DNA of 64,000 nucleotides from Candidatus Pyrohabitans jungbluthii (GCA_002010065.2 MTMD02000002.1:124001-188000), one strand, 5' to 3'. Positions 12,179 through 18,558 are shown, counted from the first letter of the stretch. Program-made: numbers and translations. Notes: a model not told the origin generated them from the sequence alone.

Positions 12179-13123
12179 TTAAAATTCTCCAAGCTGCTCC
12201 ACGCTACACTCGCTTGCGGGCTTATCTAAGCGGAGTCTCACGAAACGGGGCATGCGCAGCCTTAAATCGCGGGTCACCGAGTCGTACGCTATTTCAGCTA
12301 CGAACTCTGGCTTTACAAAGCTCGCCTCCTTCACACCTTCATAGCCAGCCAGCTCCAGAGAGTTCACGCGAAGCTTTTCAAGCTGCTCTCTCAAGCTACG
12401 TAGCGTGGCTTCGTCAAAACCTGTGCCCACCTTGCCCACGTAGCGCAGCTCGTCGCCATGATAGAGCGCAAGTAGGAGCGCCCCAAAGCTCTCCTCTCGC
12501 TCACCTTTGCCTTTTGTGAAGCCTACAATAATGCAGTCCACACTCTTAATCCGCTTTATCTTGAGCCAATCGCTGCTTCGCTTTCCAGGATCGTAGATGC
12601 TCTTCTTCCGCTTCGCCACTATGCCCTCGAGGCCAAGTTTAAGCACAGCCTCGTAGTAAGCCTCGCCGTGCTCCTCAACGAAGTCTGCTATGACTACGTG
12701 TTTCCCCTCCCTCAGCGCTTCCCTCAGCACCTCCTTTCGCTTCATGAGGGGCGTGTTAAGTAGCGACTCGCCTCTATAAGCCAAGATGTCAAACACCACG
12801 TAGCTCGCTGGAAAGCGCTTCGCCAGGTAGGCGACGCGCTCCTGCGGGGCGTTGAGCCTCTCTATCGCAAGCTGAAAGTCTGGCTTGCCCCCGCGAAGCA
12901 CCACAATCTCGCCGTCGAGAATCGCTTTGCTGGAGACCAGCTCCTTGAGCTCCGTAAGCTCCGGAAAGGCTTCGAGCAGCTCATTACCCCGCCTGCTCCT
13001 TATGCTCAGCTTGGTGTCAATATAACTTATGGCGCGAATCCCATCCCACTTAACCTCAAAAATCCAATCGGGCGAAGAAAAGGGCTTTCTTGCTGTCTTT
13101 GCAAGCATCGGTTTAATAAACAT
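12179..13123 (-). CDS. ATP-dependent DNA ligase of the NHEJ (LigD/LigC) type
   Basis: 314 residues, the size of a LigD ligase domain, lacking the N-terminal DNA-binding domain of replicative archaeal ligases. Adenylated lysine Lys25 lies in EVKWDGIR; RSRRGN, ILDGEIVV, FDILAY, GLEGIVAK and SSDWLKIKR are motifs Ia, III, IIIa, IV and V. An OB domain follows with VGKVGTGFDE and the family end FEVAYDSVTRDLRLRMPRF-like segment. It seals breaks held by Ku. It starts 3 bp after the Ku stop and is the last gene of the five-gene operon. Confidence 0.95.
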   Translation of the reverse strand: MFIKPMLAKTARKPFSSPDWIFEVKWDGIRAISYIDTKLSIRSRRGNELLEAFPELTELKELVSSKAILDGEIVVLRGGKPDFQLAIERLNAPQERVAYLAKRFPASYVVFDILAYRGESLLNTPLMKRKEVLREALREGKHVVIADFVEEHGEAYYEAVLKLGLEGIVAKRKKSIYDPGKRSSDWLKIKRIKSVDCIIVGFTKGKGEREESFGALLLALYHGDELRYVGKVGTGFDEATLRSLREQLEKLRVNSLELAGYEGVKEASFVKPEFVAEIAYDSVTRDLRLRMPRFVRLRLDKPASECSVEQLGEF

Positions 13124-13126
13124 CTT

Positions 13127-13924
13127 CTACTCCTGCTTTGCCTTGAGTTCCTCCACAGTCTTTCGCAGGGCTTCCATTAGGCTCTTAACCTCCTCCTTTT
13201 CCGCCTCCTCCACCACGACGACCTCGCCCGCTAGCTTCTTGTTGATAAGCTCCTGAAGCCTCTCCACGTAGGTATCGCGGTAGCTCGCTAAGTCAAACTC
13301 CCCCGAAAGCGCGTCCACTATCGTCGCCGCCAGCTCCAGCTCCTCCTCAGGGGGCTCCTTTATGCCCTGGAGCTCCTCCATGTCCTGTGGACTTACAACC
13401 TCATGAGGATAGTGCAGCGTCGTCGCGATCAGCGCACCCCTGTAGGGGTGTACCAGTACTGGATATTCTTTAGAGCGGAGCGTAAGCCTGCCCGCCCCAG
13501 CTTTGCCCGTGCGCTGAAGGGTATATAAGAGCAGGGCATACGCCTCCTCGCTCTTATCAGGGGTGAGGATGTAGGAGGTGTGGAAGTATATCGGGTCAAC
13601 GCTGGCAAGGTCAACAAACTTCTCAAGGGCTATCTTCTTACTCGAAGCCGGCTTAATAGCCTCAAGCTCTTCTTCCTCAAAGACCACATACTCACCCTTG
13701 CGCACCTCGTAACCTTTAACTATTTCTTCCAGGGGGACCTCCTCACCGCACTTGCTACACACCCGTTTAAATTTTATTGGCGCGTTGTCTCTGCGGTGAA
13801 GCATGCGGAAGGAGAAGACCTTCTCTCGAATCATGGGGTAGAGCTTTACGGGCACGTTGACCAGGCCCACCGTTATACTCCCGCTCCATATCGCCCGCTT
13901 TGGCGGCTTAGCGCTAAGCTCCAT
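13127..13924 (-). CDS. ku: Ku, bacterial-type DNA end-binding protein
   Basis: 265 residues. The start AIWSGSITVGLVNVPVKLYPM and RVCSKCGEEVPLEEIVKGYEV are the conserved N-terminal blocks of the homodimeric bacterial Ku, which encircles DNA ends and recruits LigD. A short acidic and basic C-terminal tail follows the beta-barrel core. It overlaps the polymerase gene by 11 bp and lies 3 bp before the ligase gene, so expression is coupled. Ku is rare in archaea. Confidence 0.96.
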   Translation of the reverse strand: MELSAKPPKRAIWSGSITVGLVNVPVKLYPMIREKVFSFRMLHRRDNAPIKFKRVCSKCGEEVPLEEIVKGYEVRKGEYVVFEEEELEAIKPASSKKIALEKFVDLASVDPIYFHTSYILTPDKSEEAYALLLYTLQRTGKAGAGRLTLRSKEYPVLVHPYRGALIATTLHYPHEVVSPQDMEELQGIKEPPEEELELAATIVDALSGEFDLASYRDTYVERLQELINKKLAGEVVVVEEAEKEEVKSLMEALRKTVEELKAKQE

Positions 13925-14729
13925 ACCTCACCTCCAGCCTCTGAGGCTCAAAGAACCCGCACCAGGGGTCTCCCCTCTCAGGTACAGTATTTATATTCAA
14001 CTCCACAGGTGATAAACCTTTCTCCAGCTCTTCCCAGGCGAGAGGCGTTGAAACCGGCGCCCCTTCCAGGGGGCGCAGTGAGTATGGCGCCGCCATGGTC
14101 TTGCCCACGGCGTTCTGGGCATAGTCTATTTTAACCTCTTTTCTGAGCTTGGCAACGAAGCGCCCAAGCTCGCGCACAAATGCTCGAGTGTCCTTGAAGG
14201 AGTACTCCCTCACAATGGGAATGAGCACATGCAGTCCCCTCTTGCCCGAGGTTTTAACGTAGCTCCTTAACCCAAGCTCCCTCAGCCTGTCGTTAATCAG
14301 AAGCGCCACCTCGCGAGCTTCGGCGAAGCCGGAACCTTGAGCCGGGTCTATGTCTATGAGCACTATATCAGGCTTCTCAAAATCGTCCACCCTTGATAGC
14401 GTGACGTTTATCTCCAAGCTTGCAAGGTTAGCCATCCACAAAAGCGTGTCCAGGTCGTCGCCCACGATGTAGTTAACATAGCGCTTTGCGTGCTCTGAAT
14501 AACGCCTAAATGTTTTCACCCAGCTTGGGGTATGCGAAGGGGCGTCCTTCTCAAAGAAGCCTTTGCCTGCGATGCCATCGGGAAACCGGTGCATAACCAC
14601 AGCTCGCTTCCTAAGGTAGGGCAGCATCTTCGGCGCTACCTTGATGTAGTACTCAATCACCTTCGCTTTGGTAATACCCGGAAAAAGCTCCTTGCTGAGG
14701 TTGGTGAACTTTACCTTAGTCAGCTCCAA
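13914..14729 (-). CDS. LigD-type NHEJ primase-polymerase
   Basis: 271 residues, a stand-alone copy of the polymerase domain of bacterial LigD (archaeo-eukaryotic primase superfamily). The metal-binding D-x-D is in VLIDIDPAQGSG, the conserved Ser/His loop is KTSGKRGLHVLIPI, and IDYAQNAVGKTMAAPYSLRP ends the catalytic core. It fills gaps and adds nucleotides at ends bridged by Ku, preferring ribonucleotides in known relatives. It overlaps the Nudix gene by 14 bp upstream and Ku by 11 bp downstream. Confidence 0.95.
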   Translation of the reverse strand: MELTKVKFTNLSKELFPGITKAKVIEYYIKVAPKMLPYLRKRAVVMHRFPDGIAGKGFFEKDAPSHTPSWVKTFRRYSEHAKRYVNYIVGDDLDTLLWMANLASLEINVTLSRVDDFEKPDIVLIDIDPAQGSGFAEAREVALLINDRLRELGLRSYVKTSGKRGLHVLIPIVREYSFKDTRAFVRELGRFVAKLRKEVKIDYAQNAVGKTMAAPYSLRPLEGAPVSTPLAWEELEKGLSPVELNINTVPERGDPWCGFFEPQRLEVRYGA

Positions 14730-15150
14730 CTTCTATCCCCCTCTCCACTAAAAACTCCCTCGCCGCCTTGAGCACGCGCTTGGCATTGGCATACGTAACC
14801 CTGGCGTATGCCTCCTGGAATGGAAGCCACGCATAGTCCACGTGCTCATAGCTCAGCGTAACCTCGCTGGTTTTAGCCTCCGCCAAGTAGAACACCACCT
14901 CCTTGTATACAAGCTCCCTGCCCGAGCGGTAGAAGTACTCTATCTTCTCCTTGAAGCCGGGGATAATCTCCAGCTCATTTATGCCGGTCTCTTCCTCCGC
15001 CTCCCGGAGAAGCGTTTCAATCTCACTCTCCCCCTCCTCTATATGCCCCTTCACAAAATCCCAGTGGCCTGCGCCGTACTTGAGCAGGAGGTACTCTACC
15101 CTCGAGTTCCTCTTGAATATAACCGCACCCGCACTCTTCTCTCGCCTCAA
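14716..15150 (-). CDS. Nudix hydrolase inside the NHEJ operon
   Basis: 144 residues. The full Nudix box G-x5-E-x7-REAEEETGI is present (GHIEEGESEIETLLREAEEETGI region, about residues 35-57). The opening KSAGAVIFKR and GHWDFVKGHIEEGE resemble diadenosine tetraphosphate hydrolases. It overlaps the 3'-phosphoesterase gene by 4 bp and the polymerase gene by 14 bp, so it is made together with the break-repair proteins. It could remove Ap4A (a by-product of ligase adenylates) or damaged nucleotides that the polymerase might insert; this role is inferred from position only. Confidence 0.92.
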   Translation of the reverse strand: MRREKSAGAVIFKRNSRVEYLLLKYGAGHWDFVKGHIEEGESEIETLLREAEEETGINELEIIPGFKEKIEYFYRSGRELVYKEVVFYLAEAKTSEVTLSYEHVDYAWLPFQEAYARVTYANAKRVLKAAREFLVERGIEVGAD

Positions 15151-15605
15151 TCTTTCTCCTCCTTAGCTTTGAAAAAGAGCCACGCGTTTTCGCCGCCTTT
15201 CTTGAAACGCAGCAGTACGTAGCGTCCCCGCAGCTTCTCGCCCTTTAGGTGAAATACTATCTTCTCATCCTTCCTGCTCTCCAGCTCATAGCTGCCGCGA
15301 TCCCAGATTTTCACCTCACCCGCGCCGTACATACCTTCTGGAATAACCCCCTCGAAGTTTGCGTACTCTAAGGGGTGCTCCTCTGTTTGAATCGCCAGTC
15401 TGCGCACGCCTTGCTCAGTGGGCGGCGGCTTTGGAATCGCCCAGCTTTTGAGCACACCGTCCATAGCCAAGCGAAGGTCATAGTGAAGCCTTCTCGCATG
15501 ATGCTCCTGCACAACAAAGATGTTCTCATGCTTTGCCTTCTCTTTAGGCTCTGGTTCAGGCGTTTTGGAGAAGTCGCGCTTCCGCTGGTATTCTTCAAGG
15601 CTCAT
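15147..15605 (-). CDS. LigD-type 3'-phosphoesterase
   Basis: 152 residues, a stand-alone copy of the LigD phosphoesterase (PE) domain. YQRKRDFSKTPEPEP, EHHARRLHYDLRLAMDGVLKSWAIPKPP (His and Asp metal ligands), and GVIPEGMYGAGEVKIWDRG are the family blocks. It trims 3' phosphates and ribonucleotides at ends before ligation. The longer frame reaches 15785, but MSLEEYQRKRDF at 15605 starts the domain, and a TTAAGTTTTA-like TATA element lies about 25 nt upstream. First gene of the operon and divergent from aroD. Confidence 0.94.
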   Translation of the reverse strand: MSLEEYQRKRDFSKTPEPEPKEKAKHENIFVVQEHHARRLHYDLRLAMDGVLKSWAIPKPPPTEQGVRRLAIQTEEHPLEYANFEGVIPEGMYGAGEVKIWDRGSYELESRKDEKIVFHLKGEKLRGRYVLLRFKKGGENAWLFFKAKEEKD

Positions 15606-15731
15606 TGGTATTGTTTTGTAAGGATAAAACTTAAGGGTAGCGCTTGTGCGGAGTTGCAAGTTGCGATTAAAGTGGGAGAGGTGAGACTTTAAATAACCCT
15701 TTCGCCCAGTAATAAAATGAGGTGGGTGAAA
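15606..15731. promoter_or_regulatory. Divergent promoters of the NHEJ operon and aroDE
   Basis: For the plus strand CTTTAAATAA at 15687-15696 is a TATA box about 25 nt before 15717-15720. For the minus strand a TTAAGTTTTA-like box lies near 15622-15632, placing the start of transcription close to the PE start codon. No repeat suggesting an operator was seen. Confidence 0.55.
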
Positions 15732-16466: not shown

Positions 16467-17330
16467 ATGGTGGACGCAAAGACAAAGGTTTTCGCCGTCA
16501 TTGGCTCCCCAGTGGAGCACAGCCTCTCTCCGCAAATGCACAATGCTAGCTTTGCAGAGCTCAAGCTAAACTGCATATACGTGGCTCACCGCGTGGAAGG
16601 GCATGAGCTCCGCGACGCCATCGCAGGCTTTAAGGCGCTTAAGTACGGGGGCGTTAATGTTACGCTGCCCCACAAGCAAGAGGTTATCCCCTACCTGGAC
16701 GAGGTGAGCGAAGAGGCTAGAGCGATAGGTGCGGTCAACACCATAGAGTTCCGCGAGGGCAAAGCGATAGGGCACAATACCGACGGCGTGGGAGCGCTTA
16801 ACGCGCTAATAGAGGCAGGGGTGGAGCCGAGAGGTAAGCGCGTGCTTATCCTGGGCTCTGGTGGTGCCGCTCGAGCAATAGCCATGACCCTCGCTATTCG
16901 TGGAGGGGTGGCTGGCATCACCCTGCTCGGCAGAACCCAGGCGAAAGTTCTGGCATTGGCGAGAGATGTGGAGCGCGCCGGAAAGGTGAGGGTCAGCGCC
17001 AAGAGCCTCGCTGAAGTAGACCTGCGCAGCACCGTGGAGGAGCACGAGATAGTGATACACGCAACACCTGTAGGCATGCATCCCCGCGCTGAGGAGACGC
17101 TTCTCAGGGCGGAGCATCTCACCTCTCAGCCGGCGGTAATGGATATAGTTTACATCCCCAGAGAAACCCTGCTTCTGAAGGAGGCAAAAAAGGCGGGGTG
17201 CAAGGCTATAGACGGCGTGGGCATGCTGGTTCATCAGGGCGCTGAGGCGGAAAGAATCTGGCTTGGCGTGGAGCCGAGCATTGAAGCCATGCGTAGGGCT
17301 GTGTTAGAGGCACTTGGGGAGGAGGGATAG
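16467..17330 (+). CDS. aroE: Shikimate dehydrogenase
   Basis: 287 residues. It reduces 3-dehydroshikimate to shikimate with NADPH. Substrate-binding GSPVEHSLSPQMHNASF, the catalytic Lys/Asp pair in NVTLPHKQEV and GHNTDGVGA, the dinucleotide loop ILGSGGAARAIA, and the final DGVGMLVHQGAEAERIW are all present. No gap separates it from aroD, so the two are co-translated; aroK at 9.7-10.2 kb and tyrA at 10.3 kb continue the same pathway elsewhere in the window. Confidence 0.96.
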   Translation: MVDAKTKVFAVIGSPVEHSLSPQMHNASFAELKLNCIYVAHRVEGHELRDAIAGFKALKYGGVNVTLPHKQEVIPYLDEVSEEARAIGAVNTIEFREGKAIGHNTDGVGALNALIEAGVEPRGKRVLILGSGGAARAIAMTLAIRGGVAGITLLGRTQAKVLALARDVERAGKVRVSAKSLAEVDLRSTVEEHEIVIHATPVGMHPRAEETLLRAEHLTSQPAVMDIVYIPRETLLLKEAKKAGCKAIDGVGMLVHQGAEAERIWLGVEPSIEAMRRAVLEALGEEG

Positions 17331-17337
17331 CGAAATC

Positions 17338-18558
17338 ATGCACAGCAAAGAGGCTGTTGCCCACCTTCTCTACTTTATTAAAGAAAAAGACGATGAGATT
17401 AAGAACACCTGGCACGCGATAACACAACTGCTCAAAGAAGGGCGGGAGGAGAGGATTTTTGAGGAGTACAACCAGCTAACTTTGGTGAGAGCCTTTCATG
17501 CCCCGAGGGCGAAAGCCTCTCTCTACATCCGTGGGGATGTGGTTGTGCTCCAGATCCTCATATTATCCCCTGAGGAGGACATAAGTTTATCAAAAAGGCT
17601 GAAAGACGCCGCTTTGGAGGAGATGTCCCTATTTCTCGGCGAGACTGTCATATTTATCTCAGAGGATAAGGAAAAGATAAAGAGGCTATATGGGGGCATT
17701 ACTTGGAGGAAATGTGAACTCTTGCAGGGAGAGCTTTACCTTCTGGAAAGAGAGAAGGACAGGGAGAGCTACCTTCTATTATCTCCTCTGCCGGAGCAGG
17801 ACTTCTTCATTAAATTTGTTTATATTGACCTGCTGAGCAGAAAGATTTCCAGGGAGGCAGAGCTTTTTCTTGAGCAACGGCAGGCAATAAGGCTGAAGAG
17901 GAAGGAGTTTGAAAAAGAGGCTTCACAGCTCCTGGGTGAGAAGTGCTGCGACTTGGAGGCTTTTGAGAAGGTTGTTGAAAAGCTGAGCTTCATCTACATT
18001 GAGCTTGCCCAGTACCTGGAGTGGGTGAGCTCAACAATAACAACACTGAGAGAGGATATACACGAGCTTGAGGAGGAGATTAAGGGCTTGATAACAGGCG
18101 AAGATGAGATTTTTTCAGAGAGACTAAATAGCTACGCCTATGCTCTTGATGTTTTAATGTACGAGAGGGAGAATTTCATCCTAGCTCAGGAAAAGGTGAA
18201 GAACGCCATAGATGTGATTAGAATGAAGATTTCAATTGAAAGGGGCAGAGAGACAATAGAACTTCAGCATGAGAGCATCTCCCTCCAGGTGGCCGCGGGC
18301 TTTATTGAGTTTATTGTTGTGTTCTATTACACCCTCAACTCATGGAAGATTCTCGCAGGAAAAGTCTTCTCTACCCTTTCACCGGGGGTTATTCTGATAA
18401 CTTTGACTGCCTTCTCCTCTTCGGTGGTGCTCTTCACCCATGCGGTTGCCACCGCGCGAAAGGAGAAAAAGAGGTTTACCGCTGAGATGGCAGCCTCGCT
18501 GGGGTTAATTCTCCTCTTCACCTCGCTGATGTTCCTCCTCACCCTCAAAAGCCTTTGA
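17338..18558 (+). CDS. Unrecognised protein with coiled coil and C-terminal membrane helices
   Basis: About 406 residues; I do not recognise the family. The first 200 residues are soluble and mixed alpha/beta. Residues about 200-320 are highly charged and helical, likely a coiled coil (KRKEFEKEASQLL, REDIHELEEEIKGLI, IERGRETIELQ). Three hydrophobic segments follow: FIEFIVVFYYTL, GVILITLTAFSSSVVLFTHAV and AASLGLILLFTSLMFLLTL. This arrangement recalls CorA-like channels or membrane sensors, but no GMN motif is present. Start 17338 has GGAGGGA about 12 nt upstream. It overlaps the convergent ferritin-like gene by 14 bp and follows aroE by 7 bp. Confidence 0.7.
   Translation: MHSKEAVAHLLYFIKEKDDEIKNTWHAITQLLKEGREERIFEEYNQLTLVRAFHAPRAKASLYIRGDVVVLQILILSPEEDISLSKRLKDAALEEMSLFLGETVIFISEDKEKIKRLYGGITWRKCELLQGELYLLEREKDRESYLLLSPLPEQDFFIKFVYIDLLSRKISREAELFLEQRQAIRLKRKEFEKEASQLLGEKCCDLEAFEKVVEKLSFIYIELAQYLEWVSSTITTLREDIHELEEEIKGLITGEDEIFSERLNSYAYALDVLMYERENFILAQEKVKNAIDVIRMKISIERGRETIELQHESISLQVAAGFIEFIVVFYYTLNSWKILAGKVFSTLSPGVILITLTAFSSSVVLFTHAVATARKEKKRFTAEMAASLGLILLFTSLMFLLTLKSL

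Follow-up and report, generated by a model that had tools for sequence, protein, structure and literature searches.

Archaeo-prokaryotic non-homologous end joining (NHEJ) is exemplified by Methanocella paludicola, in which a phosphoesterase (PE), a primase-polymerase (Pol) and a ligase are separate proteins encoded in an operon with Ku (PMC4797286). Herein we describe a similar locus from Candidatus Pyrohabitans jungbluthii, found within a 64,000-nucleotide stretch of DNA (GCA_002010065.2 MTMD02000002.1:124001-188000; hereafter the window), in which five genes lie in a row on the minus strand (15605-12179) and are ordered, in the direction of transcription, PE, Nudix hydrolase, Pol, Ku and ligase. 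The PE and Pol are closely related to those of M. paludicola by sequence and motif; however, the M. paludicola paper (PMC4797286) mentions no Nudix gene, whereas the window has one between PE and Pol. The Nudix protein has its Nudix box, specificity tyrosine and fold in common with the asymmetric diadenosine tetraphosphate (Ap4A) hydrolases, including human NUDT2 and Aquifex aq_158. Unlike that family, it is encoded in a DNA repair operon, and its activity is a predicted one. We put at about one half the probability that, in this one genus, the NHEJ operon co-expresses the genome's only NUDT2-type hydrolase, and that this Nudix clears dinucleoside polyphosphates made by the ligase.

The first-pass annotation had proposed a five-gene split-LigD operon at this position, and its calls held for all five proteins: each gene was present on the minus strand with profile matches and intact motifs, family assignments were strong, and relatives of solved structure were found for every product. 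The PE (15147..15605, 152 aa), a standalone LigD-type 3'-phosphoesterase, matched LigD_N amongst the Pfam and NCBIfam profiles (E 7e-41), scored above the cutoff of LigD_PE_dom, and matched 3p43 in the PDB (E 8e-57). Its catalytic residues H35, H41, D43, R45, H77 and Y81 are intact, and all six align at a constant offset of 5 with those described for the Methanocella PE (PMC4797286). The protein also carries an N-terminal extension, SLEEYQRKRDFSKTPEP; such an extension has been linked to 3'-phosphatase activity (PMC4797286). The LigD-type primase-polymerase (13914..14729, 271 aa) matched LigD_Prim-Pol (E 3e-76; score 257 against a Pfam cutoff of 27), scored 213.0 on TIGR02778, whose cutoff is 214.7, had the NHEJ polymerase 5dmu as its best PDB match (E 4.5e-48), and retains the motifs DID (126-128) and IDY (201-203). 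A search for relatives of this polymerase in viral contigs gave a single weak, partial match, and the idea was dropped. Ku (13127..13924, 265 aa) is of the bacterial, single-domain type (PF02735, E 2e-45; Ku_bact, 277 bits where 150 suffices), and is the only Ku gene of the genome, in which a search gave this single match. The LigD-type ATP-dependent DNA ligase (12179..13123, 314 aa) is without an N-terminal DNA-binding domain, scored above the cutoff of TIGR02779 (NHEJ_ligase_lig, E 1e-83), and has an intact KWDG active-site motif (25-28).

These genes are as tightly packed as had been noted. PE overlaps Nudix by 4 nt (TTGA), Nudix overlaps Pol by 14 nt and Pol overlaps Ku by 11 nt, leaving a 3-nt gap between Ku and the ligase, and the Nudix gene is thus overlapped on both sides. 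With these junctions and a gene order kept across the genus, the locus has the single-operon organization of archaeo-prokaryotic NHEJ, and the five genes are probably co-transcribed. As a LigD-type ligase, PrimPol and PE are all encoded with intact catalytic residues, the locus is, as judged from its sequence, a complete archaeo-prokaryotic (split-LigD) NHEJ operon of known kind.

The Nudix gene (14716..15150, minus strand, 144 aa) begins at a TTG codon that overlaps the PE stop and is preceded by a Shine-Dalgarno-like GGAGGAG; three relatives from the genus have a methionine codon (ATG) here. Its product matched PF00293 (E 1.6e-17), and residues 35-57 conform exactly to the Nudix box GX5EX7REUXEEXGU. 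The closest sequences in the PDB were human Ap4A hydrolase (E 5e-21) and then the Ap4A hydrolases of Aquifex and C. elegans. An AlphaFold2 model (pLDDT 95, pTM 0.89) likewise retrieved Ap4A hydrolases as its first 17 PDB fold matches, from human, Aquifex, C. elegans, Chlamydia (CT771) and the malaria parasite, with the human enzyme matching at a TM-score of 0.84 and approximately 36% identity in the structural alignment. One tyrosine, which contacts the X-moiety, marks diadenosine polyphosphate (ApnA) hydrolases (PMC5389931). In the window Nudix this residue, downstream of the box, is Y72, which aligns with Y82 of human NUDT2 and is nearly invariant (at least 90% conserved) amongst 28 relatives. 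By its sequence, specificity tyrosine and predicted fold, the protein is classed as a NUDT2-type Ap4A hydrolase, and we infer that it hydrolyses Ap4A. Removal of Ap4A was one of the roles suggested at first pass and fits this family. The clearing of 8-oxo-NTPs fits less well, as Ap4A hydrolases gave the best matches and MutT-type models matched poorly, at 23-36 bits against cut-offs of 98-475, which does not place the protein amongst the MutT-type pool sanitisers. The genome has two Nudix genes in all, and only the operonic one is NUDT2-like.

We next consider how far this arrangement extends. The gene order is common to all five genomes of the genus, which makes a chance arrangement unlikely, and the flanks are shared where the contig reaches them, although the locus is only partly readable in G002, where the contig ends inside Ku. 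In G001 the PE appeared to be lost; the apparent gap between aroD and Nudix is a run of 100 N at the PE position, and a deletion is therefore not shown. Pairwise dN/dS (the ratio of non-synonymous to synonymous substitution rates) for Nudix within the genus was 0.06-0.14, comparable to the values of its operon neighbours (PE 0.04-0.07, Pol 0.11-0.15, Ku 0.02-0.16, ligase 0.10-0.18). Strong purifying selection acts on the Nudix, which is a working gene. Two sister genera have PE but neither Ku nor a NUDT2-like Nudix, and Nudix and Ku therefore go together within the family.

Outside the genus, we surveyed 394 archaeal genomes together with plasmids, calling a NUDT2-like Nudix at E <= 1e-20 and basing statistics on the 389 genomes beyond the genus. 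Ku was found in 22 of the 394 genomes, and in 6 of the 23 genomes of the phylum. Five of these six make up the genus; the sixth, G012, belongs to another family of the same order. In G012 the genes for Pol, Ku and ligase-PE are adjacent and their products are 61% (Ku), 55% (Pol), 56% (ligase) and 65% (PE) identical to those of the window; however, the ligase and PE of G012 form one protein and its locus is without a Nudix, whereas in the window the proteins are separate and the Nudix is present. The fusion itself (L095:7502-8893) has the ligase first, is 463 aa long, and adjoins Ku and the separate polymerase. In the sixteen remaining Ku genomes the locus, cut by a contig end in some, is mostly Ku and ligase alone with PE outside the operon, so that the full four-gene set is rare even amongst Ku-bearing archaea, in agreement with the published count of Ku in 10 of 243 archaea (PMC7719229). 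Only one of the sixteen, G235, has a Pol at the Ku locus, in two fragments (L103:3133-4038), where the polymerase is read in two frames beside Ku and ligase through either decay or sequencing error. A candidate second Ku-Nudix neighbourhood, in G057, was rejected: its Nudix belongs to another subfamily and lies 1.3 kb off, with an opposite-strand gene between it and the ligase. NUDT2-like Nudix genes were found in 64 and PE in 96 of the 394 genomes. Ku and PE share 8 genomes where 4.0 are expected (p = 0.036; genus excluded, kinship ignored).

The PE appears to have a history of its own. In the PE tree, those of the genus cluster together with standalone PEs from the sister genera (9 rows, support 100/98), and the window PE is therefore native to its family. 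An endonuclease III gene lies directly upstream of PE, on the same strand and often overlapping it, in 15 of 81 PE loci, mostly without Ku (L154, L163, L168, L170, L174, L175, L184, L192, L194, L198, L201, L208, L211, L217 and L222), and a uracil-DNA glycosylase gene does so in 2 of the 81 (L200 and L221). At two of the endonuclease III loci, from two archaeal genomes, a gene for a DUF2267 protein follows PE directly, with a 4-nt overlap or 6 bp away (L168:3729-4121 and L174:794-1189). The seemingly longer endonuclease III reading frames of the genus turned out to be an ordinary 218-aa gene. The standalone PEs beside endonuclease III belong to the same family as that of the window, but accompany base-excision genes without Ku, whereas the window PE sits in a Ku operon. 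These neighbourhoods suggest that archaeal PE has a role in base excision, and it looks like a 3'-end cleaner of base-excision and single-strand-break repair that was drawn into NHEJ, by way of the operon in the genus and by fusion in G012. No paper stating such a recruitment of PE from base excision was found in the literature searched.

One PE-Nudix pair lies outside the genus. In G011, a Ku-less Hydrothermarchaeota relative, a divergent AP endonuclease gene is followed by PE, a NUDT2-like Nudix and queH (L098:2335-4501), with PE and Nudix 1 bp apart and in the same order and strand arrangement as in the window. By a rough estimate that takes about two neighbour slots, approximately 1,200 genes and about ten other archaeal genomes with both genes, such an adjacency would arise by chance at around one per cent, for which reason the pair deserves notice. 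The Nudix genes of G011 and G016 are sisters (98/86); that of G016 is also near queH, but the PE of G016 is on another contig. A PE-Nudix pair ancestral to the order is therefore not shown, and the tree did not resolve it. Further pairs in G322 and G135 were set aside, as they involve another Nudix subfamily and the PE there stands behind endonuclease III; on plasmids, no PE-Nudix neighbourhood was found.

How might a Nudix of this type serve an end-joining operon? In the reading that we favour, Ku would hold the DNA ends, PE would clean their 3' termini, Pol would fill in with ribonucleotides and the ligase would seal. Dinucleoside polyphosphates would arise from the ATP-dependent ligase when an NTP, and not the DNA 5' phosphate, accepts AMP from ligase-AMP, and the Nudix would hydrolyse them (Ap4A to ATP and AMP). 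Its targets would therefore be nucleotides in the surroundings of the repair reaction, and not the DNA end. Known producers of Ap4A include human ligase III and T4 DNA ligase, the latter using ligase-AMP and an NTP, and dinucleoside tetraphosphates of the Ap4N type increase after DNA damage and on depletion of repair proteins such as aprataxin or XRCC1 (PMC7705103). The link between the predicted Ap4A activity of the Nudix and the ligase is itself putative. This reading is favoured by the operonic position of the gene in all members of the genus, by its being the sole NUDT2-type gene, by a dN/dS like that of its operon neighbours, and by the absence of both Ku and this Nudix from the two sister genera. 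Several points weigh against it. Ap4A hydrolysis by the Nudix and Ap4N synthesis by a LigD-type ligase are both putative activities, and the joint presence of Nudix and Ku in the genus is one evolutionary event. A Nudix was operonic in none of the 17 other Ku-positive archaeal genomes, although contig ends truncate some of these loci. Two genomes have both Nudix and Ku against 2.6 expected (p = 1), and 11 have both Nudix and PE against 14 (p = 0.41), with the genus excluded and kinship ignored in both counts. The neighbourhood is thus conserved in all five genomes of the genus but not outside it. The first-pass step from tight packing to a direct role in end joining is not supported, as the arrangement is confined to one genus, and NUDT2-like Nudix genes are common in Ku-less archaea and show no statistical association with Ku. 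As an operonic partner of Ku, the Nudix is not a conserved component of NHEJ beyond the genus.

The same distribution bears on whether the Nudix is instead a housekeeping Ap4A-type hydrolase, placed here once in the genus ancestor, retained because of the overlaps and playing no part in end joining. Relatives at 52-62% identity occur far from NHEJ genes in many archaea and some bacteria, that of G012 is 470 kb from its NHEJ genes, co-occurrence with Ku or PE is lacking, and in G011 and G016 the gene is near queH, which is unrelated to repair. Yet the Nudix is internal to the operon, overlapped on both sides and not placed at its end, and its absence along with Ku from both sister genera implies that the two appear or vanish together in the family; we regard this explanation as somewhat unlikely. 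The single hint beyond the genus of a direct part in end joining is the G011 pair, in a genome without Ku, where Nudix directly follows PE beside the divergent AP endonuclease. It would fit an enzyme that strips AMP from the 5'-adenylated DNA of failed ligations, or trims 5'-triphosphate or Np4-capped RNA, while PE deals with the 3' end. Members of the family can work on the 5' ends of polynucleotides, since human NUDT2 trims 5'-triphosphate RNA (PPP-RNA) to its monophosphate form (P-RNA; PMC8616924). However, the adjacencies in G011 and the genus may be independent given the G016 relationship, and PE and Nudix show no general co-occurrence. In eukaryotes, moreover, adenylated DNA is handled by the HIT-type aprataxin, and we think a 5'-end function unlikely. 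In an extended form of this reading, NHEJ would have a fifth factor that acts on ends: the Nudix would decap App-DNA, App-RNA or ppp-RNA to a 5'-phosphate in partnership with PE, the two having first formed a pair, as they do in G011, for the repair of single-strand breaks or for base excision, and later joined Pol, Ku and ligase. This form seems quite improbable. A MutT-like enzyme clearing oxidised NTPs would suit the preference of NHEJ Pol for ribonucleotides (PMC4797286), and weak matches to the MutT and MutT1 models point the same way. As every MutT-type match is far under its cut-off and the nearest sequences and folds are Ap4A hydrolases, we hold such pool cleaning to be very unlikely.

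The operon is flanked upstream by the divergent aroD and aroE genes and downstream by genes for a signal peptidase, prephenate dehydrogenase and shikimate kinase. A 111-bp intergenic stretch (15606..15716) separates the operon from aroD and, as read from the sequence, probably holds the promoters of both. No Shine-Dalgarno motif precedes PE and a TA-rich stretch lies approximately 30 bp upstream, so the transcript is likely leaderless. In the sister genera we sought a clean empty site between the signal peptidase gene and aroD; because of rearrangement within the aro cluster of these genera, insertion of the operon could not be shown. Adjoining aroE is a 414-aa open reading frame (17314-18558, plus strand) that is conserved in the genus at 70-78% identity and has no Pfam match. 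A search of the window for RNA families found none. The source genome is that of a Hydrothermarchaeota archaeon near Candidatus Pyrohabitans, and its close relatives include strain JdFR-17 of Candidatus Pyrohabitans sp. as well as metagenome-assembled genomes of Hydrothermarchaeota.

In the literature searched, outside of which most subscription journals lay, we found no report of an NHEJ operon that contains a Nudix gene. DNA damage raises Ap4A in human cells and DNA ligases are able to make it, but the same literature yielded no genetic connection of an Ap4A hydrolase with a ligase of end joining. We regard the locus as a variant, at the level of one genus, of the split-LigD operon already known, in which a link to Ap4A can be tested. 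In this heat-loving archaeon, the pairing of the Nudix with the NHEJ operon is real, though not conserved in other archaea. The history of the PE suggests that end joining in archaea can recruit its phosphoesterase from base excision. As the operon unites an end-joining ligase and an Ap4A-type hydrolase in a presumably heat-stable system of five small proteins that can be rebuilt, it makes the question of how Ap4A relates to end joining directly testable.

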